Below are positions 28,370 through 47,140 of a DNA stretch of 64,000 bases, piece after piece (positions within the stretch are counted from its first letter, which is position 1; each line of letters starts with the position of its first letter). Below the pieces are notes generated by a model, which was not told where the DNA came from, made no database searches, and saw only the letters and a list, made by a program, of their open reading frames with translations. The DNA lies in contig NZ_ATTH01000001.1 in the NCBI RefSeq assembly GCF_000419585.1, positions 2,316,005 to 2,380,004 of the forward strand, given 5' to 3'. Both the position numbers and the translations under genes were made by a program. The DNA is from Salisaeta longa DSM 21114 (GTDB lineage: Bacteria > Bacteroidota > Rhodothermia > Rhodothermales > Salinibacteraceae).

Positions 28370-29203
28370 TCACTCGTAGCCCAGCTTACGCACGATGCCA
28401 CGGTACTCTCGGTCAAATGCATTTGCAACGCGGTCCGTAAAGTGGTCTCTCCAATCTCCAGATTTTCCTTTTCTATAATGGCTTTTCTTACCGTCTCGGC
28501 GTTTCAAATCTCGCTTTTTGACTTTCTTAAACTCATGATACGCCATAATACTTTTGAAAATATTAGTGTGTACATGACCTTCTTTCCGGATATGCGTCGG
28601 CACACTGTTGCCTAAGCGGTGATTTAGCGCGTAAAGGAGCCGGTTCATTTTCTGCGTTAACCATGGGATTGGGCCAGACGACTGGACGGTAAGTCCGAGA
28701 TGGGTCAGAATACGGCGGAATGATTCAGATGGACTTGCTGTAAGCTCTTCCATTTTTATTTCGAGTATGTGTTTTTGATTGTAATCCCATTTGTACATAT
28801 TGATCATATTTTGCTTGCTGAACTGAATTTCTTTCAATAGCCCGTTCTCTTTTGAAAGTGACTCTAGTTGTTCTCTATGAGACTTCAACACCTGCCAGTT
28901 ATCTGTACCATGTGTATAAAGATGAGAATAATATGCTGAAACCAAAACATCACGCGGATCGCGAACTACGTGAAAACCGCGGTGGGGTCGTAGTTTTTTA
29001 ACCTCACTGATTCGTGCATTCGTAAATGCAAGAAATTCTATATCTTTTTCACGCACAACAGCATCAAGGCCGCGAAATGAGGAGTAATTACCTACGCCAT
29101 GAAATGTGTAGTGGTTGCACCCCGTGTGAAAGCAGACTTCTCGGACAATTGAGTTGGTCCATCCTGTAGCACATTTATGGTGACTATAATAAGCAAACCG
29201 CAT
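28370..29203 (-). CDS. Sulfotransferase family protein
   Basis: A 277-residue protein with sulfotransferase features: YYSHHKCATGWTNSIV at residues 5-20 stands in for the PAPS loop, and RGFHVVRDPRDVLVSAYYSHLY near 74-95 is the clear 3'-phosphate-binding motif. A C-terminal basic region (KKVKKRDLKRRDGKKSH) precedes WRDHFTDRVANAFDREY, typical of many bacterial sulfotransferases that end in a FTPELAxxFxxxY-like helix. The third intact sulfotransferase of the locus, from yet another subgroup. AT-rich. Confidence 0.8.
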   Translation of the reverse strand: MRFAYYSHHKCATGWTNSIVREVCFHTGCNHYTFHGVGNYSSFRGLDAVVREKDIEFLAFTNARISEVKKLRPHRGFHVVRDPRDVLVSAYYSHLYTHGTDNWQVLKSHREQLESLSKENGLLKEIQFSKQNMINMYKWDYNQKHILEIKMEELTASPSESFRRILTHLGLTVQSSGPIPWLTQKMNRLLYALNHRLGNSVPTHIRKEGHVHTNIFKSIMAYHEFKKVKKRDLKRRDGKKSHYRKGKSGDWRDHFTDRVANAFDREYRGIVRKLGYE

Positions 29204-31913: not shown

Positions 31914-32795
31914 TTATATTACTTTCACAAAACCCATATGACGGCCAATAAACTGATTTAAGGGCATAGAACTGGGTACGAACAGGTATTTTTCTTTGTT
32001 TGGATTTATCCAATGTGCCCAAAGACTGAAAGTGCTGTCTGGTATGATATTTATTCTGAATCTAGACATCAACAACATATCTTCGTGTGGCCTTTCTTTA
32101 TTTTCATCCACGAAATAATCAATGTAACTCTCGTCTATGTTTCTCTTGCACCACTCTATATCGTCTGAGAAAACAAATACCTCAGGTTTTTTTATTATTT
32201 TTTTTGCTTTTTTTAACGCTTTTTTGTAGTAAGGACTAAAAGTGGCATATTTATTATTTTTCTCTCCAATTTTTAATCTATCTCCTCTCCTTATGTGTAT
32301 AGAGATTGCATTTTTGAAATTGATGTCTTTGTTTTTTATTTTTTCTTTCATTTTTTTATTAACAGTATATTGTATCTTTTCCACCGTCGGCTCAACATAT
32401 TTATAGTCAAGCCAGTAGCCAAGTAAATACACATCACCATCAAATCGATTTATTCTTTTTATTTTTTCTTTTATTCCCATATTCATTTCTCCCTCATAAA
32501 AGAAGCCAGGACTTGGGTGCCCTCTTGTCACTTTTCTATAAATTTTTTTTGCGCTAGGAATTACACCTCTCTTTGTGATTCTGAAATACTCTTTTTCTTT
32601 TTTAGATGCGTATTTTAGATTAAAACCTAGTTTATCAAGAAGAAAATCTCTGTCATCGTACTCCGGATGTTGGTTTCCATCGTACCAATCTGTGACTATT
32701 TTTAGTTCCTCTTTTCTTTCTTGGGCAACACGTAACCCAAAAGCATACTGGAAAAGTTGATTCCCGAGACCGTGTCTTAACTCCAACACTACCAT
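31914..32795 (-). CDS. GT11 family, alpha-1,2-fucosyltransferase-like
   Basis: A 293-residue protein of glycosyltransferase family 11. The N-terminal ELRHGLGNQLFQYAFG (residues 5-20) and AISIHIRRGDRL near 167-178 are the family hallmarks; the latter binds the GDP-fucose diphosphate. Later motifs VFVFSDDIEWCK and IIPDSTFSLWAHWI also fit. It would add fucose, or a related deoxyhexose, in alpha-1,2 linkage. This is the most AT-rich gene of the window, rich in AAA and TTT runs, so recent acquisition is likely. No GDP-fucose synthesis genes are in view. Confidence 0.88.
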   Translation of the reverse strand: MVVLELRHGLGNQLFQYAFGLRVAQERKEELKIVTDWYDGNQHPEYDDRDFLLDKLGFNLKYASKKEKEYFRITKRGVIPSAKKIYRKVTRGHPSPGFFYEGEMNMGIKEKIKRINRFDGDVYLLGYWLDYKYVEPTVEKIQYTVNKKMKEKIKNKDINFKNAISIHIRRGDRLKIGEKNNKYATFSPYYKKALKKAKKIIKKPEVFVFSDDIEWCKRNIDESYIDYFVDENKERPHEDMLLMSRFRINIIPDSTFSLWAHWINPNKEKYLFVPSSMPLNQFIGRHMGFVKVI

Positions 32796-33484: not shown

Positions 33485-33811
33485 TTATGCCAGCAGGGAT
33501 CGGTACAACTGTTCGTACGCTCGCGCTTGCACCGCCAACGTATATTTGGCTTCGACAACCTCTCGACACCGATGTCCCATCTGCTCGCGGCCCGACTCGC
33601 TCTGCCAGAAGTCAATGTCTGCATCGTAGCGCTGCAAGATGCCGACCGTCTCATCCTCGCTGCCTCCATCCATGACGATGCACTCTAAGTTAGGATATTC
33701 CAGCAAGAACACTAAGCGGATCGTGGCTTCGATAAACCGGCCTTGATTATAACTGGGCATAACGACCGTTACTTTGAGAGATTCATTGATGTTATCAGAT
33801 ACAGAAGGCAA
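33485..33811 (-). pseudogene. GT2 head joined to GT4 tail, chimeric remnant
   Basis: A 108-residue frame. The first part, VTVVMPSYNQGRFIEATIR through CIVMDGGSEDETVGILQRYDADIDFW, is the start of a GT2 enzyme. After SES it changes to GREQMGHRCREVVEAKYTLAVQARAYEQLYRSLL, which is the C-terminal helix of a GT4 enzyme. The DXD region of the GT2 and nearly all of the GT4 are missing, so a deletion fused two glycosyltransferase genes. The first codon counted is TTG; the same frame continues upstream through a TAG into another GT2 remnant. Confidence 0.8.
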
Positions 33812-35556: not shown

Positions 35557-35862
35557 CTAGTCATCGGCATACTCGGTGCGGAGAAATGATTCCGTCGCTT
35601 CCGGTAGGGTGAATAGGGTATTCCCATAGTTTGTAAGGCGGTGCTGGCATAAGGCTTGTGGCGTGACGTTGAAGCGGCGAAACAGACGGTTGTTGAGGGT
35701 GGGCACAAGTGGTACCTTTTTCAGTCCTCCGTTCATACGGTTCAAAGTGCGAAGCAGACGGACTTGTTCTTGGCTTCGCACTCCGACGTTTCGCTTTGTC
35801 TGGTCGATTTTGTTGGCTCGGAGGATATACCAGGGAATCGGCATGGCGATTTCAAGAAGGTC
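35557..35862 (-). pseudogene. Remnant, possibly the C-terminal end of a sulfotransferase
   Basis: A frame of about 100 residues following an in-frame stop at about 35863. It reads DLLEIAMPIPWYILRANK..., KKVPLVPTLNNRLFRRFN and LPEATESFLRTEYADD. The pattern of basic linker, LNxLxRxF, then LPxxxxxxLRxxYxDD resembles the tail of PAPS-dependent sulfotransferases, but the PAPS loop and 3'-phosphate motif are absent. The region around it (35417-35556) shows no gene. Assignment is weak; it could be a fragment of another protein. Confidence 0.35.
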
Positions 35863-36135
35863 TCACTCGTTTCCGCGTCTTGGTCTTGAACTACTGCAGG
35901 GCTTTGCGTCGGATTTGATTACAGCTGCCGCAACCCGCATATCCACCTCATCATCCACATCCACCGCCCGCTCCTTTGGCATCGGATACGCCACTGTCTC
36001 GTGTTGAAGAAAGGTCCCGTCGTTTCGCAATGCCTCCGTCTCTCCCACGTACACCGCTCCGTTGAGGGCATACGTCGGCGGGGCGTCTTGGCGGCGGGGG
36101 ATGCGTTCGGTCTCCATGATGATGCGCAGCCTCAT
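35863..36135 (-). pseudogene. NeuA/PseF-type cytidylyltransferase remnant
   Basis: A frame of about 90 residues whose ATG overlaps the pseI stop as ATGA. It opens MRLRII, then jumps to ETERIPRRQDAPPTYALNGAVYV, and ends YPMPKERAVDVDDEVDMRVAAAVI. The later parts match the end of CMP-nonulosonate synthetases (substrate-binding RRQDxPPxYxLNGAxYV and the ERxVDIDxExDF closing motif). The CTP-binding ARGGSK region and about 130 further residues are gone. MRLRII could be the original first residues, which would imply one large internal deletion. Beyond AVIKSD the sequence is unrelated. Confidence 0.75.
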
Positions 36136-37169
36136 CCCACGTGCGTCCATTCAAGCGGCACTCCCCGCTCAAGATCCTTCGCGGCCCGTTTGCCCAGGAC
36201 TTCTTCGTAGTAACGTGTATGCAGTCCATGGCCCGGACGAATACTGCGGACATTGTCTTTGGTAAAAGGTTGCCCTGCTTTCACGTCTTGGACTACGAAC
36301 AGCGAACGACGGAACACCCCGCTTTCGGCTTCTTTGCCTCGGGTGCCATACTGCACGGTACCTATTGCTTGCTCTGTTTTGCGGACCGCACGGACCATCT
36401 CTTTGAACTCGCGGGGCTCCAACGAGAACCCGCTATCCGGACCTTCATCGTCTCGCGAAAGGGTGAGGTGCTTCTCGATGATACGTGCGCCCAAGGCCAC
36501 GGCTGCAACCGGGATCTCTGTGCCCAATGTGTGGTCAGACAGGCCCGTGGCGACGTCAAACGTTTCGGACAGGTGCGGAATACGGCGTAGGTGCATGTCT
36601 TCAGGCGAAGCCGGGTACGAACTGGTGCATGCCAGCAGGGCGAGTTCGGTCCCTCCTGCTGTCCGAAAGGCGTGAACGGCCTCGTCAATCTCCGCGAGCG
36701 TGGCCATGCCCGTCGACATGATGAGCGGCTTGCCTGTGGCGGCGATCTTTCGAATCAGTGGAAGATCAACATTTTCAAATGAGCCGAGCTTATAGACTGG
36801 CACCTCCAGTTTCTCCAGAAAGTCTACCGCCGTCGGGTCAAACGGAGTCGAGAAAAAGTCCAGCCCGCAGTCATAGGCTGCCTCTTGAAGATCCGCGTGC
36901 CACTCCCAGGGCGTGTATGCCTCTTCGTACAGATCGTAGAGCGTGCGCCCGTCCCAGATGGTTCCCTCAATCTGAAAGGGCTCCTTATCGCAGTCAATCG
37001 TGATCGTATCGGGCGTGTAGGTCTGGAGTTTAATCGCATCGGCTCCCGCCTCTGCCGCTGCCTGCACGATGTCCACCGCACGGTCGAAGTCGTGATGATG
37101 GTTGGCTGACATCTCGGCGATGATATAGGTTGGCTCTGTAGCGCCTACCTTTTTAGTTCCTATCGTCAT
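36132..37169 (-). CDS. pseI: Pseudaminic acid synthase
   Basis: Condenses 6-deoxy-AltdiNAc with phosphoenolpyruvate to give pseudaminic acid. The 345 residues show the NeuB-family start TYIIAEMSANHHHDFDRAV and KLQTYTPDTITIDCD, plus GTIWDGRTLYDLYEEAYTPW, which I associate with the PseI rather than NeuB or LegI branch. A C-terminal SAF (antifreeze-like) domain covers about 290-345 (RRSLFVVQDVKAGQPFTKDN). The start MTIGTKKVG aligns with PseI; in-frame upstream codons (ATG 37196, TTG 37202) are less likely. Last intact gene of the pse operon. Confidence 0.9.
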   Translation of the reverse strand: MTIGTKKVGATEPTYIIAEMSANHHHDFDRAVDIVQAAAEAGADAIKLQTYTPDTITIDCDKEPFQIEGTIWDGRTLYDLYEEAYTPWEWHADLQEAAYDCGLDFFSTPFDPTAVDFLEKLEVPVYKLGSFENVDLPLIRKIAATGKPLIMSTGMATLAEIDEAVHAFRTAGGTELALLACTSSYPASPEDMHLRRIPHLSETFDVATGLSDHTLGTEIPVAAVALGARIIEKHLTLSRDDEGPDSGFSLEPREFKEMVRAVRKTEQAIGTVQYGTRGKEAESGVFRRSLFVVQDVKAGQPFTKDNVRSIRPGHGLHTRYYEEVLGKRAAKDLERGVPLEWTHVG

Positions 37170-37214
37170 GGATTGTTGATTGGACAGGGGAATCATACGC
37201 AAGTTATATAAAGG

Positions 37215-37895
37215 TTACTCTATTGAACGGACAAGATGAAAGGCCTCAGCGGCATTTACACCAACCGTCCGTCCCCAATGCTGTGCAATTGATCTCAGGG
37301 CCTTCGGGGAGCGGGGATGCGGATAGGGACGGGCCTCGCTTTCGTACGCTTGCATCGAGCGTATTTTAGTCTCCAATGTGTCACTGATATCGACAAACGT
37401 ATTTGGGTGGAACGGCGGATCAAATTTCTGAAAAGCCCACTCGGTTGAGGAGGCAACTTCATACGAGTATACGGTGGCCACCGGGTGATCCGCCATTGGA
37501 CGCGTTGCTGTCAATGTGGCTCGATATACCACATTATGATCAATATTCAGATCTCCACCGTGCTGTGTAAACACAGTTTCAGGCTCGATCTTTGAAATCA
37601 AGTCCTCAATGATTTTAATCACCTCAAGTAGAGGCACGGTATCAAACCGGTTATCCGGCAGATCATACGTGAAGATATCCTTTGCGCCAAGCATCTCAGC
37701 AACCGTTCGGCTCGTGGCCTGCAAAGCCTTCAACTGCTCTTTTTCGGCGTCGTCTCGGCTATCATGCCGGGAGGTAATGCCTTCCCCCAAAATTGCGATA
37801 TATACGTCTTTTCCCTCTGCAGCTCGGCGCGCAATGGTTCCTCCACATCCGAGTACTTCATCATCCGGGTGTGCAGCAATTACTAATGTAGCCAT
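37215..37895 (-). CDS. PIG-L (LmbE-like) family deacetylase
   Basis: Zinc-dependent N-deacetylase of 226 residues. The metal motif AAHPDDEVLGCGGTIARRA is at residues 7-25 and the second metal/catalytic region is TQHGGDLNIDHNVVYRAT near 115-132. Family members remove acetyl groups from amino sugars. Its place in the pse operon, between pseI and a formyltransferase, suggests it deacetylates a pseudaminic acid intermediate or product so that another acyl group can be attached. That role is inference. Confidence 0.85.
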   Translation of the reverse strand: MATLVIAAHPDDEVLGCGGTIARRAAEGKDVYIAILGEGITSRHDSRDDAEKEQLKALQATSRTVAEMLGAKDIFTYDLPDNRFDTVPLLEVIKIIEDLISKIEPETVFTQHGGDLNIDHNVVYRATLTATRPMADHPVATVYSYEVASSTEWAFQKFDPPFHPNTFVDISDTLETKIRSMQAYESEARPYPHPRSPKALRSIAQHWGRTVGVNAAEAFHLVRSIE

Positions 37896-37914
37896 ACATC
37901 TACTTGCTTGCTAT

Positions 37915-38610
37915 TTATTGATCCGTGGGTAAAATAGTCACTGTAGCTTCAATGCGCCTATCGTATCGAGATGCTCGCCTAAACTCGAACCTGAATCCAC
38001 CTTCTTCAATGAAGGCAGGAGGATATCCTTCCGCATCCAACATCCGAATGAAATCAAAAAGTGCCTCCAGTGACTTCACTTCACTGATTTCGCTCTGCTC
38101 AGGTCGGCGTCTTTGAAAAACGACCGGATCCCCTTTCTGCGGATCGGGCTCTATCTCTTTTTCGATGATCGTTTGAATCATCGACGCTGAGAGCTTACTT
38201 GAGCGTATGAACACTTCTTCCGCTGTACTTCCTTCGAGCGAAAGATCTCGCTTGAGGTAAACGGGACCAGCATCAAGTTTAGGGACCATGCGCAGGGCAG
38301 TCAGCTTTGTTTCTCGGTGCCCACGGACAATCAAGTTCTGTAGGGGACTTCCGCCCCGTCCATATGGAACGTCCGTCATATGAAAGCACACGCACTCATA
38401 GGTATTCACAATCTCTTCAGGGACGATGTGTGACCAGTGTAAAAAGAAGATGTATCGAGGATTTACCTGTGATACCCATTTTAGCGTTAGATCGTCCGAT
38501 GAATCAATGAATATCCAATGGCCAGGGAAATTGGAGATTTGACTTTCAAATACTTGGCGGTTCCATGGATTTGATCCTGCAACTGCATATACGGTTTTAC
38601 TGCTACTCAT
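37915..38610 (-). CDS. Formyltransferase-fold protein of nonulosonic acid loci
   Basis: A 231-residue protein with the formyltransferase core: FHMTDVPYGRGGSPLQNLIVRG near 75-96 and the catalytic-Asp loop VPKLDAGPVYLKRDL near 109-123. Compared with methionyl-tRNA formyltransferase (NxH), the Asn is replaced by Cys (VCFH), while His and Asp are kept; I recall FHMTDxPxGRGGSPLQNLI as a stable feature of homologues in Pse/Leg loci. It probably transfers formyl from N10-formyl-tetrahydrofolate to an amino sugar, giving an N-formyl derivative. Lies 19 bp upstream of the PIG-L gene. Confidence 0.75.
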   Translation of the reverse strand: MSSSKTVYAVAGSNPWNRQVFESQISNFPGHWIFIDSSDDLTLKWVSQVNPRYIFFLHWSHIVPEEIVNTYECVCFHMTDVPYGRGGSPLQNLIVRGHRETKLTALRMVPKLDAGPVYLKRDLSLEGSTAEEVFIRSSKLSASMIQTIIEKEIEPDPQKGDPVVFQRRRPEQSEISEVKSLEALFDFIRMLDAEGYPPAFIEEGGFRFEFRRASRYDRRIEATVTILPTDQ

Positions 38611-38623
38611 TGCTCTTTTTATA

Positions 38624-40222
38624 TTAGTCAGATGATGAAGCTATATAGCAATACGATTCTTGGCCTTTCATAGAACTCTTCCCATGATAAGCATATCCAG
38701 CTTTTTCGAAGGCTCGACAGGAAGCGATGTTATCGATTTTTATATATGCATGAACTTGATTTAAGTCAGATAAGTCTAAAAACTTGCCTGTGCCTTCCTT
38801 AATTATTTTGGTACCGAATCCTTTGCCATGCTGGTCAGGATCGACGTGAACATCTACAACTGACCTCTCATCCTCAACGTCAAACCGGATCTGCCCGACC
38901 GGGTCGCCTCCAAACTCTGCAATATAGATCGTGCAGTCGTCGCTCGCTCGTTTTCGCCGAAACCACTCCTTGTGATCTTCCCAAGGGATCTCCCCCGTGT
39001 TATAGGACTGCCTGCGCACCTCAGGGTCGTTCGCCCACTCCCAGAGCCGCCTGCAGTCTGAATCCTCAACAGGACGTAGAGTGAGGGCTGCACTCTCGCC
39101 TTGAGCAAACCCATCGGCTTCTTGGTCATCCGGTCTTCTCATACTGGTCTCTATGCCGCTCGGCGCATTGCCATGATCGGTATGATGGGCTGCTCGTATG
39201 GTATCGATCACACGTTGAACGCCCTTGCCATCCACTAGATACTGCGCGGACTGAGCCATCTGGAGTCGTTTATTATCATTGAGGAGAAGGGCGTGAAACG
39301 CCGCTTCCAAGTCATGGGGGGTTACCTCGGCGTGCCACCCCAGGTTCACGGAGGCGCCTGCTTCATCAAGCCCTTCGGCAATGCCGCGCTGGTTCTCGGC
39401 CAGGATGACAATGACGCTCGGAAGGCCCATAAATGCCAGTTCCCAACACGTGCTTCCACCAGCCGACACAGCCATGTCGTGTTGTGCCATCAATGCGGCC
39501 ATGTTGCTCACGTCCTCCCGGAGTGTCATCGGCTGATCGGCATGAGCAATCGCTCTGGCGATGGCGTCCCGGTGAGGGTTGCTCCCTCCAACAACAACGG
39601 TCACCTCCAGTGGAACCGAATGTTCAATCGCATCCAATGCCCGGATAACGTCCGTGGTCACGTTGTCGGGGTCTCCGCCGCCCAAGGTTACCAGAATACG
39701 CCGGGGCGGCAGGGTTGGCTCACGGTGCGTGCCGCGCCAGGGCCAAAACTCTTTCCGCAGAAGTGCAAATTGGGGACCCAGAAGCAATGTGGTATGATCT
39801 GCACGATCTGCGTATAGCGAGGCGTCCGCGTCAATATTTTGGTTCAAAACCAGGTCGGCGGCATAATGAGACGCGTGTCCGTAGTCGTCCAATGCAAGAA
39901 CACGGAATCCTTGGTCTCGAATCTCTGCTTGGTAATCGCCATCAAAGTGATATCCATCGATGACGACCCAGGAGGCATTCGCTTCCCTTGCTAGGCGTGC
40001 CGTGTGTTCTGCATCGCGTAGGCTGCCCGGAGGCACAGCACAGGACGTCCCCTGAATCCCCTCTGCTTGAAGGCGCTTCTGAAGGGCAGGCGTCACATTT
40101 CCACAGAAGGCAACCTGTCCGCCCTGTGCCATCCATTCCTGGGCCAGCGCCAGGCACCGCATCACATGGCCGGTTCCCATCTCCGGGGAGGCGTCGGCGC
40201 GAATGAGAAGGGGATCTAACAT
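38624..40222 (-). CDS. PseG-PseH fusion: UDP-sugar hydrolase plus N-acetyltransferase
   Basis: A 532-residue fusion of two steps. Residues 1 to about 345 match PseG, which removes UDP from UDP-2,4-diacetamido-2,4,6-trideoxy-altropyranose: RADASPEMGTGHVMRCLALA at 8-27 (catalytic His about 19), ILVTLGGGDPDNVT near 177, and MAVSAGGSTCWELAFMGLP near 250. A linker follows. Residues about 377-528 form a GNAT domain like PseH, the 4-N-acetyltransferase: VDVHVDPDQHGKGFGTKII and SCRAFEKAGYAYHG. In many genomes these are separate genes. Overlaps the spsF-type gene by 7 bp. Confidence 0.9.
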   Translation of the reverse strand: MLDPLLIRADASPEMGTGHVMRCLALAQEWMAQGGQVAFCGNVTPALQKRLQAEGIQGTSCAVPPGSLRDAEHTARLAREANASWVVIDGYHFDGDYQAEIRDQGFRVLALDDYGHASHYAADLVLNQNIDADASLYADRADHTTLLLGPQFALLRKEFWPWRGTHREPTLPPRRILVTLGGGDPDNVTTDVIRALDAIEHSVPLEVTVVVGGSNPHRDAIARAIAHADQPMTLREDVSNMAALMAQHDMAVSAGGSTCWELAFMGLPSVIVILAENQRGIAEGLDEAGASVNLGWHAEVTPHDLEAAFHALLLNDNKRLQMAQSAQYLVDGKGVQRVIDTIRAAHHTDHGNAPSGIETSMRRPDDQEADGFAQGESAALTLRPVEDSDCRRLWEWANDPEVRRQSYNTGEIPWEDHKEWFRRKRASDDCTIYIAEFGGDPVGQIRFDVEDERSVVDVHVDPDQHGKGFGTKIIKEGTGKFLDLSDLNQVHAYIKIDNIASCRAFEKAGYAYHGKSSMKGQESYCYIASSSD

Positions 40223-40941
40223 GACTTCTGCTCCACATGTTGGTTGATTGAAGCGAGTCCGTCGTGCGTCTCAACAAGCCGGACAACGTCTTCGTAGGAG
40301 GCTGTTTCTGTTTTGGCCCCAAGCATTTCGTATATGCGACGAACCAGTATCAAATCCTCTTCTTCGTCCACCGTCCACCTCAGCCCCGCTCGATTATTGT
40401 TCGCCGTAACCGAGCACAATGCAAAATCCTCCGAATGCTTCCGAATGTATCGGGTTACATGTTCGCGATCTGCGGGATCGGATGCCATCGAATGCACGCG
40501 GCGTAGCGCGCTACAGGAGATCACCTCGGTATCGAGACCACGCGGGTACGTTCGCTCGATGGTATTCGCTGCGTAGTCGCAAGAGGTTTCTACAAACGTC
40601 TGAATTACATTTTCGGACACATCAGGCATCAACAGGGGGCAATCCGATGTAATTCGGACAACCGCATCGGCATCATATGCCTCTGCGGCATCCACATACC
40701 TTTCGAGCACGTCGGACTCTGAACCCCGAATAAAGGGGATTTGTTGGCTTTCGAGATGCTCAATGAGTGGTTTTTCCTTGTCGAGGACGGACGTTGCAAC
40801 AACCACTTGATCAACACTGGAGATGCGGCGGGCACGTCGTACAACCCAATCAATCATCGGGCGCCCTGCGATGTCACGCAGCACCTTTCCTGGAAGCCGC
40901 GTCGACCCCATGCGCGCCTGTATGACAGCAACGATGTTCAT
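40216..40941 (-). CDS. SpsF-type cytidylyltransferase, likely PseF function
   Basis: Nucleotidyltransferase of 241 residues: NIVAVIQARMGSTRLPGKVL at the N terminus is the SpsF signature, followed by VVVATS and VVRITSDCPLLMPDV. In Bacillus sps operons and many pse operons this protein sits at the place of the CMP-pseudaminate synthetase. Here it is the only intact cytidylyltransferase of the operon, since the NeuA/PseF-type gene at the operon end is reduced to a fragment. The start at 40941 was chosen because the IVAVIQARMGS strand normally begins at residue 2 or 3. Confidence 0.8.
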   Translation of the reverse strand: MNIVAVIQARMGSTRLPGKVLRDIAGRPMIDWVVRRARRISSVDQVVVATSVLDKEKPLIEHLESQQIPFIRGSESDVLERYVDAAEAYDADAVVRITSDCPLLMPDVSENVIQTFVETSCDYAANTIERTYPRGLDTEVISCSALRRVHSMASDPADREHVTRYIRKHSEDFALCSVTANNNRAGLRWTVDEEEDLILVRRIYEMLGAKTETASYEDVVRLVETHDGLASINQHVEQKSC

Positions 40942-40967
40942 GTCGGTCTCCATATCGGCCTCAGCCA

Positions 40968-42179
40968 TCAAGCACGGTAAGCGGCCATGACTTTTTCAAC
41001 GGCATTGACGGTATCACGAACATCTCCGTCTGTCATCCGCGGAAACACCGGCAGCGTCAAGATCCGCTCGTATGCCGCCTCCGCATTGGGGCACAGTCCT
41101 TCCTTCGTGTCAAACCGCTTGCGGTAGAACGGATGATAGTGGACGGGAATGTAGTGGACGTTGACGCCAATTCCTTCCGCACGGAGGGCATCAAACACCG
41201 TGGAGCGATCGACAGACAGGGCATCCAGATTGAGTTGAACGACGTACAGATGATATGCACACGTGGCATCCTCGCGCATGTGGAGGGGCTGAATGCCATC
41301 GAGTGATGCAAACGCCTCGTCGTACTGCGCAGCAATCGCCTGGCGCCGCTCCGTCCACTCTGGCACCTTTGCAAGTTGCGAACGGCCCAGCGCACACTGG
41401 AAGTCCGTCAGGCGGTAGTTGTAGCCCAGATCGGGCATTTCATAGAACCACGACCCTTGCTCTGACCGCTCGTGGTGGGTGGTGGTGATGCCGTGATTCC
41501 GAAACTCACGCATCCGCCGGGCAGCCTCGGCATCGTCCGTGGTAATCATGCCGCCTTCCCCCGTCGTCATATTCTTGACCGGATGGAAGCTGAATGTGTT
41601 AAAGTCGGCGAGAGCCCCCACCGGACGTCCATTGAACTCGGCTCCAATGGCATGGCACGCATCGTCGTGCAGAACCAGGTCGTGCGCGTCCGCCAACTGG
41701 CGCAGCTCGTCGTAGCGACACGGCTGACCGGCGTAATCCACGCCCACGATGATTTTGGTCCGCTCCGTAATCTTCTTCGCCACATCCTCTGGATCAATCA
41801 GCAGCGTGTCGGGCCGAACATCCGCAAACACCGGCGTTCCGCCCTGAAAGACCACGCTGTTGGCGGTGGCCGCGAACGTGAGCGTCGGCACAATCACCTC
41901 ATCGCCCGGCCCAACCCCCACGGCGTGCATCGCAGCATGCAGAGCGGCTGTGCCATTCGAGACTGCAACCGCCTCCTCCGCACCGACAAACGCGGCGAAG
42001 TCTTTTTCAAAGGCATCCACCATTGGGCCGGTGGTCAGCCAGTCGGACCGAAGGACATCTGCAACGGCGTTAATGTCGTCCTCGCGGATCGTTTGTCCCC
42101 CGTAGGGAAGCAAATCGTTCCGAACGGGAGGGCCGCCCTCCACTGCGAGTTGCGTTTCTGCCTGGGTCGATATACTCAT
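40968..42179 (-). CDS. pseC: UDP-4-amino-4,6-dideoxy-N-acetyl-beta-L-altrosamine transaminase
   Basis: PLP-dependent aminotransferase of the DegT/DnrJ/EryC1 family, 403 residues, catalysing the second step of pseudaminate synthesis. The PLP lysine is K202 in FNTFSFHPVKNMTTGEGG. SNGTAALHAAMHAVGVGPGD (74-93) and VDYAGQPCRYDEL near 148 fit PseC specifically. It follows pseB by 32 bp and precedes the spsF-type gene by 26 bp. Confidence 0.92.
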   Translation of the reverse strand: MSISTQAETQLAVEGGPPVRNDLLPYGGQTIREDDINAVADVLRSDWLTTGPMVDAFEKDFAAFVGAEEAVAVSNGTAALHAAMHAVGVGPGDEVIVPTLTFAATANSVVFQGGTPVFADVRPDTLLIDPEDVAKKITERTKIIVGVDYAGQPCRYDELRQLADAHDLVLHDDACHAIGAEFNGRPVGALADFNTFSFHPVKNMTTGEGGMITTDDAEAARRMREFRNHGITTTHHERSEQGSWFYEMPDLGYNYRLTDFQCALGRSQLAKVPEWTERRQAIAAQYDEAFASLDGIQPLHMREDATCAYHLYVVQLNLDALSVDRSTVFDALRAEGIGVNVHYIPVHYHPFYRKRFDTKEGLCPNAEAAYERILTLPVFPRMTDGDVRDTVNAVEKVMAAYRA

Positions 42180-42211: not shown

Positions 42212-43240
42212 CTATTCGGAGGTCCCGTTCGTTGTGGCGTAATCGGCTTCATCCAGCCCGATCATGGCACGAAGCTCCTCTGCGGTTAACCAGCGATCGT
42301 TGTTGTCGCTGCTGTATATGAACTGATCCTCGCACCAGATCCCTCCGTTGCGCTCCTGATAGCCGTCTGTATCCCAGCGGTGAAAGGTCGGCAGGATCGT
42401 AAAGTAGTCATCAAACTCCAGCGTGTGACGCGAGACGTTGCGGGGCACCATGACCTCGTGGAGTTTCTCCCCAGGACGAATGCCAACGACTTCTTGCTTG
42501 CACTCAGGGGCAATCGCGCGGCCAAGATCCGTCACCTTCATGCTGGGAATCTTCGGAACAAATACTTCTCCTCCCTCCATACGCTCCAGGTTATCCAGCA
42601 CAAAGTCAACCGCCTGCTCCAACGTAATCCAGAACCGCGTCATGCGGGGATCTGTGATCGGGAGCGTGCCGGTTTTTCGCTTCTCCAAGAAGAATGGGAT
42701 GACGCTCCCCCGGCTTCCAGCGACGTTGCCGTAGCGCACAACACTAAACCGCGTTCCGTCCTGGCCGGAATAGTTGTTTCCGGCAACGAAGAGCTTATCC
42801 GAACATAGTTTTGTTGCGCCGTACAGGTTGACTGGATTTGCGCCTTTGTCCGTGCTGAGGGCAACGACGCGATCCACCCCACAGTCAATCGCCGCATCGA
42901 TGACATTCGCACCTCCCATCACGTTGGTTTTAATCGGCTCGATGGGATTGTACTCGGCGGCCGGCACACGCTTCAGTGCCGCAGCATGGACCACGATGTC
43001 CACCCCACGAAACGCACGGTACAGCCGGTCTTTATCGCGCACATCGCCGATAAAATACCGGAGGCACTCGTGCTCCCGAGGCGAGAAGCGCTGCTTCATT
43101 TTGGCCTGCTTCAGTTCATCGCGGCTCAAAATGATCAACCGTTCCGGATCATATCGGTCCAAGACCATGTCCGTGAATTTTTTCCCGAACGATCCGGTGC
43201 CGCCCGTGATGAGAATATGTTTGCCGTTTAAATCGGTCAT
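42212..43240 (-). CDS. pseB: UDP-N-acetylglucosamine 4,6-dehydratase (inverting)
   Basis: First enzyme of pseudaminic acid synthesis: UDP-GlcNAc to UDP-2-acetamido-2,6-dideoxy-arabino-hexos-4-ulose. The 342 residues begin MTDLNGKHILITGGTGSFGK with the NAD(P)-binding Rossmann loop; the catalytic set T130-D131-K132 (ALSTDKGANP) and Y140-x3-K144 (LYGATK) is intact. RDELKQAKMKQRF and WITLEQAVDFVL are also typical. A longer start at 43282 is in frame but adds residues absent from the family. First gene of the operon; the ABC transporter gene ends 142 bp upstream of it. Confidence 0.93.
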   Translation of the reverse strand: MTDLNGKHILITGGTGSFGKKFTDMVLDRYDPERLIILSRDELKQAKMKQRFSPREHECLRYFIGDVRDKDRLYRAFRGVDIVVHAAALKRVPAAEYNPIEPIKTNVMGGANVIDAAIDCGVDRVVALSTDKGANPVNLYGATKLCSDKLFVAGNNYSGQDGTRFSVVRYGNVAGSRGSVIPFFLEKRKTGTLPITDPRMTRFWITLEQAVDFVLDNLERMEGGEVFVPKIPSMKVTDLGRAIAPECKQEVVGIRPGEKLHEVMVPRNVSRHTLEFDDYFTILPTFHRWDTDGYQERNGGIWCEDQFIYSSDNNDRWLTAEELRAMIGLDEADYATTNGTSE

Positions 43241-43382
43241 TCGTTGCGTGGTGTCAGTTGAGATGAATCGGTTGTTCGTCAAGCAATGATCGCGGTGTCG
43301 CTTCGGCCTCTACTTTTTAATGATGGACGCCCTCGGCACATCACATACTTCCATAGGTACCCCCCCTTCACACCTACACCCG

Positions 43383-45307: not shown

Positions 45308-45925
45308 CCTTCAGGATGATCTCTTTTGCATTGTACGGTACGTTTGATGGTTCAGATGGCCAATCGGGCCGGTTTGCGCAACTGCACGTCCAACACACCA
45401 AAAAAGCAAAAATCAGTGTGTCATCGCGAGGAATGAACGGAGTGAGTGACGCGGGGGCCGAAGGTCATATCTACGATGGGGCCGGAGGTCATGCCCCTGG
45501 TGGGGGCCGGAGGTCATATCTACGATGCAATCTCCATGTACGGAGCATAACGCTCCATTGCGGAGATGACACCTATGGCGTGACCTAAGGGCCTCACTTC
45601 CAGTATGACCTGACGATCTCCTTTCAGGGTGACCTCTTTTGCATCGTACGGTACGTTCCTGCCCCACTGCGGAGATTGCGCTTTCAGCATGACCTAAAGG
45701 CCCCCACGCTCCCTATGGTCGCTCGCAATGACATGAATGGTTAAAGCTGAAGAACAGACGTTGATGGTTCAAACGGTTTATCGCGGCTGACTGCGCAACT
45801 GCACGCCCAACGCACGAAGAAGCACTACCCTCCTTGTCATCGCGAGGACTGAGCGGACGCGAAGGACGTGGCGATCTCCATGTACGGAGCAATCTCCATG
45901 TATGAAAAGGCAAACGTCTGAAAAA
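45308..45925. repeat. Composite repeat cluster R4
   Basis: Repeat block between the ABC transporter gene start and the GIY-YIG gene, with nothing else in the gap. It opens with the module CTCTTTTGCATTGTACGGTACG, has conserved spacers at about 45330-45415 and 45735-45830 (plus orientation), a palindromic element with TCATCGCGAGGAATG and TCGCTCGCAATGACA ends, and three tandem GGGGCCGNAGGTCAT units (about 45459-45524). It breaks off after GCAATCTCCATGTATG at about 45922, close to the nuclease gene. Confidence 0.85.
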
Positions 45926-45951
45926 TGCCGAGGAGGCCCGCGTACGTCCTC

Positions 45952-46242
45952 TCAAAGATCAGCCGACAAGTCACGCCACGACGGGTTTTGCCGCTGGATA
46001 CATGCCACCTTCTGTGCACGCGTCCCCGCCTTTAGCTGCTTCTCGCGACGGATCGCATCGCGCACCTCGCTGTAGGCCTCGGCATAGACCAGCTTCGTTG
46101 CGTTGTACCGCCGCACAAACGCGCTTCCTTCACCTTGCCGGTGCTCGGCCACACGCCGGCGCAGATCGTTCGTCATGCCGGTGTACAGGACGGTGTGATG
46201 AGCGTTCGTCAGGATGTAGACATAATATGTGCGCCGTGCCAT
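45952..46242 (-). CDS. GIY-YIG nuclease-domain protein (UPF0213-like)
   Basis: A single-domain GIY-YIG protein of 96 residues. TYYVYILTNAHHTVLYTGMTNDLRRR holds the first strands with the YVY...YTG form of the GIY-YIG motif and the catalytic Arg; RREKQLKAG and NPSWRDL complete the domain. Such proteins cut DNA or RNA; homing endonucleases use the same fold with extra binding domains, absent here. The frame stays open upstream through repeat DNA to 46677, but the start MARRTYYVYI is the natural one. It stands between R4 and R5, with only about 30-45 bp of unique sequence on each side. Confidence 0.85.
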   Translation of the reverse strand: MARRTYYVYILTNAHHTVLYTGMTNDLRRRVAEHRQGEGSAFVRRYNATKLVYAEAYSEVRDAIRREKQLKAGTRAQKVACIQRQNPSWRDLSADL

Positions 46243-46274
46243 AGCGCTTGACTGCCTCGTTTCGGTGCTTGCCC

Positions 46275-47140
46275 GATGGGACGATTTTTCCTTCAGGAAG
46301 AACTCTTTTGCATCGTACGGTACGTTCTTGCCCCACTGCGGAGATTGCGGCGCTCCCGCTGGTCGCTCGCAATGACATGAATGGTTAAAGTTGAGATCAG
46401 ACGTTGATGGTTCAAACGGTTTATCAGGACTGATCGCGCAACTGCACGCGCAACACATCGAAAAAGCAAAAATCAGTGTGTCATCGCGAGGAATGACCGA
46501 AGGGAATGACGCGGCGATCTCCATGTACGGAGCATAACGCTCCATTGCGGAGATTGCCACGTCGCTCCGCTCCTCGCAATGACATTGAGGGTGGAATGCG
46601 AAAATGGTACATTGATGGTTCAAACGATTTATCGCGGCTGACTGCGCAACTGCACGCCCAACGTCCCAGAAAGGCAAGGTTCAATGTGTCATTGCGAGGA
46701 ACGAACGGAGTGAGTGACGCGGCAATCTCCATGTACGGAGCGTAGCGCTCCACTGCGGAGATTGCCACGTCGCTCCGCTCCTCGCAATGACATTGAGGGT
46801 GGAATGCGAAAACGATACATTGATGGTTCAAACGGCCAATCGGGCCGGTTTGCGCAACTGCGCGTCCAACACACCAAAAAAGCAAAAATCAGTGTGCCAT
46901 CGCGAGGAATGACCGAAGGGAATGACGCGGGGGCCGGAGGTCATATCTACGATGCAATCTCCGTGTACGAAGGACAACGCTCCACTGCGGAGATTGCCGC
47001 GCACCACAGGCATGACCTACGGCCCTCGCCTTCGCTCCTCGCAATGACAACAGTGGTGGAAGCACAAAGGGCACGTTAATGGTTCAAATGGCTCGGATGG
47101 GATTGGTCAACTGAACACCCAACACCCCGAAAGGCCAGGG
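46275..47140. repeat. Composite repeat cluster R5
   Basis: Fills the gap between the GIY-YIG gene and the Wzc-like gene. Starts with CTTTTGCATCGTACGGTACG, then four conserved spacers (about 46382-46470, 46600-46690, 46800-46890, 47050-47140, plus orientation) alternating with palindromic elements. Two consecutive elements (46480-46600 and 46685-46800) are nearly identical, with GAGCATAACGCTCC or GAGCGTAGCGCTCC inner hairpins. 47141-47193 holds nothing recognisable. Confidence 0.85.

Follow-up and report, generated by a model that had tools for sequence, protein, structure and literature searches.

The pseudaminic acid operon and its surroundings

The window, by which we mean the whole stretch of 64,000 nucleotides of Salisaeta longa DSM 21114 that was analysed, carries on its reverse strand an operon for the synthesis of pseudaminic acid (Pse). 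It is transcribed in the order pseB, pseC, a cytidylyltransferase gene, a pseG-GNAT fusion, a formyltransferase gene (hereafter FT1), a gene for a PIG-L/LmbE-type N-deacetylase (hereafter PIG-L), and pseI, and neighbouring genes overlap or stand apart by no more than a few dozen bases. PseB (dehydratase/epimerase, 42212-43282, TIGR03589, 524.6 bits, cut-off 407.75), PseC (aminotransferase, 40968-42179, TIGR03588, 451.4 bits, cut-off 423.5), the UDP-sugar hydrolase PseG (TIGR03590, 236.4 bits), and the pseudaminic acid synthase PseI (36132-37202, TIGR03586, 497.4 bits, cut-off 340.25) lie in one run, each above its NCBIfam cut-off; the listed start of pseI is TTG, and a later ATG start is possible. 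PseG forms part of a fusion protein of 532 aa (38624-40222) whose other half is a GNAT acyltransferase, over the cut-offs of the GNAT Pfam models and with 46.1 bits on TIGR03585 (cut-off 93.1). The gene in the PseF position (40216-40971) reaches 110.7 bits on PF02348 and 34 bits on the PseF model (cut-off 205.7). Since the curated PseH and PseF models of NCBIfam both stay below their cut-offs in this operon, where the general family models are reached, we keep to the labels "PseH-like" and "a cytidylyltransferase".

The two remaining genes lie between the fusion and pseI, as the first-pass annotation had placed them, with intact ORFs and family cut-offs passed. FT1 (37915-38610, 231 aa), an N-formyltransferase of the type of 1zgh, starts 13 bases past the fusion, and 19 bases separate it from PIG-L (37215-37895, 226 aa), which is predicted to take off the C2/N5 acetyl and ends 12 bases ahead of the pseI ORF.

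The G+C content of the operon is ~52-58%, lower than the ~65% found farther out, and the cluster therefore looks acquired. The wider region between 22000 and 46000 of the window, with 40-59% G+C against the same ~65%, is likely an acquired surface-polysaccharide island; its genes include a truncated GT2 (33485-33811), a GT11 of fucosyltransferase type (31914-32795), and a sulfotransferase (28370-29203). Two short ORFs (35557-36150), neither with a Pfam match, separate pseI from a glycosyltransferase. One of them (35863-36150) resembles by eye the C terminus of a NeuA-type cytidylyltransferase and is thus perhaps a decayed gene. Upstream of the operon, imperfect direct repeats of 208 bp (45344-46954) overlap an ORF with a GIY-YIG domain.

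FT1 belongs to a divergent family of formyltransferases

FT1 reaches 84.4 bits on the Pfam model PF21553 (Formyl_trans_C_2, cut-off 27) and 20.2 bits on the general N-domain model PF00551, under its cut-off of 26.1; PF02911, the model of the usual formyltransferase C-terminal domain, has no match in it. The nearest sequence in the PDB is 1zgh of C. thermocellum (phmmer, E 6.5e-62), a member of the same family (PF21553) that is titled methionyl-tRNA formyltransferase. The predicted structure of FT1 (pLDDT 95.2) matches 1zgh with a TM of 0.89 and 46% identity across the fold match, and it also matches Fmt, ArnA, and WbkC with a probability of 1.00, which places FT1 in the formyltransferase fold.

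The canonical triad of these enzymes, as in ArnA and Fmt, is Asn-His-Asp. FT1 has the His (His77) and the Asp (Asp113), with Cys75 at the position of the Asn: in the phmmer alignment, the Cys of its VCFH motif faces the Asn of INVH in a canonical Fmt (4iqf). His77 and Asp113 are invariant in the 81 FT1 sequences and the GRGGSP loop is nearly so among the relatives, and the column of the catalytic Asn holds Cys in 72 sequences, Val in 3, Ile in 3, Gly in 2, and Asn in 1. The VCFH motif, which had been singled out as the difference from tRNA formyltransferases, is real, and the Cys does distinguish FT1 from those enzymes; the Asn is, however, also absent from other formyltransferases encountered in this work. 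The sugar N-formyltransferases ArnA, WbkC, and VioF share with FT1 the fold and the active-site His and Asp, and differ from it in that FT1 has Cys for Asn. Their pathways are not known to need a separate deacetylase.

The title of 1zgh might suggest that FT1 is an ordinary methionyl-tRNA formyltransferase that stands in the operon by chance. We regard this as very improbable. A separate fmt lies elsewhere in the genome, with 259 bits on the methionyl-tRNA formyltransferase model TIGR00460 (cut-off 201.5), on which FT1 itself scores 41.8-43.3 bits, and the lack of the PF02911 domain and the operon context also argue against it. We rejected this identity for FT1 in view of the separate fmt.

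The loss of the Asn (replaced in 80 of 81 relatives) would fit another possibility, namely that FT1 is in practice no formyl transferase and hydrolyses or binds the cofactor, or moves another acyl group, leaving N5 free or differently acylated. Pse with a non-acetyl N5 and an acetyl N7 does exist, since the 5-N-lactyl, 7-N-acetyl form is described in Psychrobacter marincola (PMC7281560). We consider this possibility quite unlikely, given the invariant His and Asp of the triad, the near-invariant GRGGSP loop, and the modelled fold with its matches to Fmt, ArnA, and WbkC.

A phage or plasmid origin of FT1 was tried and rejected: a search for phage relatives gave six records, none covering 80% of the protein, hence partial matches and no full-length one. 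One cyanobacterial plasmid carries an entire pse operon with FT1.

PIG-L has the metal site of LmbE-type deacetylases

PIG-L of the window reaches 90.3 bits on PF02585 (cut-off 28.2). LmbE/PIG-L proteins are defined by an HxD1D2 motif and a distal His after a spacer of 97-148 residues (PMC4101496), and the protein has H9, D11, D12, and H120, with 108 residues from D12 to H120. The HxDD motif and the distal His are present in 80/80 relatives with letters at those positions. The AlphaFold2 model (pLDDT 93.1) has its best fold matches in diacetylchitobiose deacetylase and BshB. Three residues ahead of the distal metal His stands Asn117, which is Asn in 80/80 relatives; the corresponding position in LmbE enzymes is a His, named as important in MshB (PMC4101496), and on our reading of the motif Asn117 would be the equivalent of that His. 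In its predicted fold and its HxDD and His metal motif, PIG-L is thus like MshB, BshB, and diacetylchitobiose deacetylase, and it differs from them in the Asn for His and in its place in a nonulosonic acid operon. Given the missing Asn of the formyltransferase triad in FT1 and the Asn in place of the His in PIG-L, either of the two may be slow or have another activity. The genome holds two further PIG-L genes elsewhere.

FT1, PIG-L, and PseI occur together across phyla

We retained the best 80 of 214 relatives of FT1 from one scan of species genomes (loci L006-L085), so that the sample leans to close relatives. According to the record titles, the 80 loci come from Cyanobacteria, Verrucomicrobia, Planctomycetes, Acidobacteria, Proteobacteria, Nitrospirae, Armatimonadetes, Dehalococcoidia, Gemmatimonadetes, Bacteroidia, and others. 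The first-pass annotation had proposed to count the co-occurrence of the two genes in pse/leg operons, and the counts bear the pairing out: among these best 80 of 214, PIG-L is present in 79, within 1.5 kb of FT1 in 78 and at 2.3 kb in L067, and a PseI-type gene lies at most 3 kb from FT1 in 74. The single locus where no PIG-L was found (L062) has FT1 and PseI. The six loci beyond the 74 comprise L019 and L074, with the PseI-type gene slightly past 3 kb, and four whose contigs, of 3.6 to 10.5 kb, hold no PseI-type gene. The gene order is FT1-PIG-L-PseI in 46 of the 80 loci and FT1-PseI-PIG-L in 22.

Even draws of genomes from three phyla (296 from that of the window, 299, and 194) gave a similar association. 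FT1 exceeds the PF21553 cut-off in 2/296, 6/299, and 3/194 genomes, sub-threshold matches in G066, G331, and G355 being left out of these counts, and PseI is found at E 1e-100 in 41/296, 47/299, and 15/194 genomes of the same draws. Once the seed genomes (G000, G296, and G298) are excluded, PseI is present in 8/8 genomes with FT1, and the product of the hypergeometric tails is 4.8e-8, uncorrected for kinship. FT1, PIG-L, PseG, and PseI are clustered together in 7/7 non-seed neighbourhoods from outside the phylum of the window, and in three of these FT1 is identical to one among the 80 loci; the eighth genome (G275) also holds PIG-L by FT1, with PseI on a different contig (L101). The association of FT1, PIG-L, and PseI is far beyond chance. 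Most genomes with PseI lack FT1, and its pathway is therefore a minority variant.

The pair most likely acts on the nitrogen inherited from UDP-GlcNAc

Pse has two acylated nitrogens of different origin. PseC yields a free 4-amine, the later N7, open to direct acylation or formylation. The later N5 is the nitrogen of the 2-acetamido group; this group comes ready-made from UDP-GlcNAc, so that a change there requires prior deacetylation. We therefore looked at the content of the slot of the N4-acyltransferase in the 71 loci with PseG (from the best 80 of 214): it is filled by a GNAT in 42, by a second formyltransferase (FT2) in 20, by both in 3, and by neither in 6. A candidate N4-acyltransferase thus accompanies FT1 in 65/71 loci and a second formyltransferase in 23/71, and in five loci PseG is fused to FT2 where others, including the window, have PseG fused to a GNAT. 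In the loci with neither, the slot holds a WbqC-like protein (L042), an ATP-grasp protein (L035), or proteins that look by eye like methyltransferases (L052 and L077), and nothing was found in it in L063/L064. The control set consisted of 40 PseI neighbourhoods of the phylum of the window, of up to 20 kb each; a formyltransferase without a GNAT fills the slot in L094, L096, and L124, and PIG-L is absent from 3/3 of these stretches.

It follows from the filled PseH slot (65/71) and from the lack of PIG-L in the loci with a slot formyltransferase (3/3) that the site of the pair is most likely the C2 acetamido group, i.e. N5. A role as replacement of PseH was rejected for most loci, the slot being already filled. 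The pair might instead swap the acyl group of N4, the later N7, with PseH acetylating, PIG-L deacetylating, and FT1 formylating to give Pse5Ac7Fo. A formyl group at N7 is indeed on record: Pse5NAc7NFm occurs in P. aeruginosa O7 (PMC12795346), and titles of cited work name a 7-formamido form in P. distincta. The first of these confirms the earlier claim that N-formyl Pse is known from O-antigens, but places the formyl at N7. We hold such a swap at N7 to be unlikely, since an N4-formyl group can be formed straight on the amine made by PseC without any deacetylase, PIG-L is missing from the surroundings of a formyltransferase in the PseH slot in 3/3 loci, and 23/71 loci have another formyltransferase besides FT1.

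The first-pass annotation had proposed a conversion of Pse5Ac7Ac into an N-formyl form by deacetylation followed by formylation, leaving the nitrogen unnamed. Deacetylation and then formylation is the best-supported reading, with a near-obligate pairing of FT1, PIG-L, and PseI and one fusion of PIG-L with a formyltransferase, and the evidence now points to N5. What the sequences show is the set of genes, their order in the operon, their families and conserved motifs, and their co-occurrence; we infer from this the activity, the formyl donor, the site, and the stage of an acyl-exchange step in Pse synthesis by which PIG-L and FT1 would give 5-N-formyl Pse, and we put the probability of this reading at about 0.6. 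The process would involve 1) acylation of the 4-amino group made by PseC, the later N7, by the PseH-like GNAT fused to PseG; 2) removal of the C2 acetyl from a Pse intermediate by PIG-L, by means of a metal-bound water; 3) transfer of a formyl group onto the freed amine by FT1, presumably from 10-formyl-tetrahydrofolate; and 4) condensation of the formylated sugar with PEP by PseI. That the exchange precedes PseI is a guess, of which the gene order, with both genes ahead of PseI in 46/80 loci, is a weak sign. If acetyl is what the GNAT transfers, the predicted 5-N-formyl Pse would be Pse5Fo7Ac, with a mass some 14 Da below that of Pse5Ac7Ac. The N5 site is further supported by the pairing of PIG-L with another formyltransferase in operons with NeuB and NeuC (L138 and L139) and in a haloarchaeal neuB-neuC cluster.

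Relation to known systems

Formylation in Pse synthesis is already known from PseJ, which gives 7-N-formyl Pse. PseJ takes the role of PseH by formylating the free 4-amine, and it is not known to require a deacetylase. It has the formyltransferase fold and belongs to the Pse pathway, as FT1 does, but FT1 coexists with an N4-acyltransferase, which in the window is the GNAT, and shows no sequence match to PseJ. PseJ is represented in the PDB by 6ci2, 6ci4, 6ci5, and 6edk. Its identity with FT1 was rejected: there was no match in the PDB at E 1, and a profile of 40 FT1 rows gave none at 0.01.

A counterpart of the predicted product is found in Halorubrum sp. PV6, which makes 5-N-formyl-legionaminic acid and whose leg cluster includes a gene for a formyltransferase (PMC6137143, in the part available). 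Formyl on N5 of a nonulosonic acid and a clustered formyltransferase gene are what we predict here, but that sugar is legionaminic and ours pseudaminic. In size, the formyltransferase of PV6, with a product of 953 bp, resembles the ~300-aa type of L139 more than it does FT1, and PIG-L is not mentioned for the cluster in the same part of that source. Surveys of other groups give scattered components. In Aeromonas, "deacetylase" genes stand between pse genes in some strains, and the word formyl is absent from the available text (PMC7874193); both words are absent from the surveys of Clostridium and Vibrionaceae (PMC13317340, PMC7371886). Formyltransferases occur in flagellin glycosylation islands of Geobacillus, with no deacetylase in the excerpted survey (PMC5109656). 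Shewanella oneidensis, with a nonulosonic acid of 274 Da, was set aside as a candidate: according to the authors of its study it has no clear PseI orthologue, and the words formyl and deacetyl are absent from the text at hand (PMC3765264). Full-text searches of the open-licence literature returned no description of PIG-L and a formyltransferase as a module, in agreement with the earlier statement that the pair was undescribed as such, nor of a step that couples a deacetylase to a formyltransferase at the inherited nitrogen.

Nonulosonic acids are surface sugars of Bacteria and Archaea, and their variation lies mainly in the N-acyl groups. The variants at N7 arise by exchange of the PseH-type enzyme. 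To our knowledge, the origin of the variants at N5, where the acetyl is inherited from UDP-GlcNAc, has apparently not been described. A deacetylase with a re-acylating enzyme would be a simple and testable route to them. It would make N5-formyl sugars predictable from genomes, and it offers enzymes for making them.

PIG-L has partners other than FT1

FT1 is tied to PIG-L, and PIG-L is not tied to FT1. A PIG-L profile search at E 1e-40 in the phylum of the window matched 23/296 genomes. Five of them are that of the window, G275, and those of three pse operons without FT1 (L109, L114, and L125), and we examined the neighbourhoods of PIG-L in 14 of the other 18 (L126-L139). PIG-L clusters with PseG and a NeuB-family gene in L127, L129, L131, and L132; L135 has neither these nor a PseB- or PseC-type match. 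In L136, L137, L138, and L139, it is directly preceded by a ~300-aa formyltransferase of another subfamily, with Gly at the position of the Asn. NeuB and NeuC exceed their cut-offs in the operons of L138 and L139, as does LegC in L139; the clusters of L136 and L137 we take to be bacillosamine-like. L139 is from G147, a genome of the same family as that of the window; instead of a pse operon it carries one of legionaminic type, with genes for LegC, NeuC, the formyltransferase, PIG-L, NeuB, a NeuD-like protein, a nucleotidyltransferase with CBS, and a cytidylyltransferase. By analogy, the acyl group would be exchanged there in the same manner, but by another formyltransferase. A plasmid of Halorussus caseinilyticus, which serves here as a proxy for the cluster of Halorubrum sp. 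PV6, has a formyltransferase, neuB, PIG-L, and neuC consecutively. On a Sinorhizobium plasmid (L149), PIG-L adjoins an aminotransferase, and the stretch of 22 kb has no match to NeuB or to a formyltransferase; the stretch from Palleronia (L151) has the ~300-aa formyltransferase and no annotated PIG-L.

One locus, present twice in our set with identical FT1 (L029:10018-12105, the same as L146:8935-11022), encodes PIG-L and an FT2-type formyltransferase as a single protein, beside FT1 and PseG-GNAT. This leaves three candidate N-acylators for two nitrogens, and the fusion supports the logic of deacetylation followed by formylation. It also bears on the idea that FT1 and PIG-L have separate substrates, e.g. 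further amino sugars within one and the same surface polymer. Members of this PIG-L subfamily do occur in clusters that showed no NeuB-type gene and have matches of PseC or PseB type only (L126, L128, L130, L133, and L134). Still, we find separate substrates improbable: by record titles, FT1, PIG-L, and PseI remain adjacent in many phyla, one protein fuses PIG-L with a formyltransferase, and other formyltransferases pair independently with PIG-L.

The pse operons that lack FT1 (L109, L114, and L125) have other candidates near PIG-L, namely a large protein resembling GNATs, carbamoyltransferases, and a protein of ATP-grasp type, which suggests that the deacetylase serves several refilling enzymes. 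Exchange by PIG-L and FT1 at N5 might then be one case of a broader function, in which PIG-L of the NxDH type would generally serve to open the 2-acetamido group of sugars derived from UDP-GlcNAc (pseudaminic, legionaminic, and bacillosamine-like), the amine being refilled in Bacteria and Archaea by interchangeable partners. The partners would include FT1 (with Cys) and the ~300-aa formyltransferase (with Gly), two distant families that both lack the canonical Asn, and possibly the large GNAT, carbamoyltransferases, ATP-grasp ligases, and WbqC-like proteins. We put forward this generalisation tentatively, at somewhat less than even odds; if true, it would explain the origin of non-acetyl N5 groups in nonulosonic acids.

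Several other proteins were seen near these genes. WbqC-like proteins stand near PIG-L or in the PseH slot in L127, L042, and L150. In L114, pseI and PIG-L are flanked by a carbamoyltransferase-type protein according to Pfam (L114:7687-9366) and by one that resembles it by eye (L114:11382-13169), hinting at a carbamoyl-modified Pse. In two loci (L004:15831-17054 and L029:13188-14339), the module is followed by proteins that by eye resemble N-acetyl-sugar amidotransferases, and these, with an N-formyl group, might make formamidino sugars. Finally, L046 encodes a fusion of PseH with PseI (L046:1113-2630).
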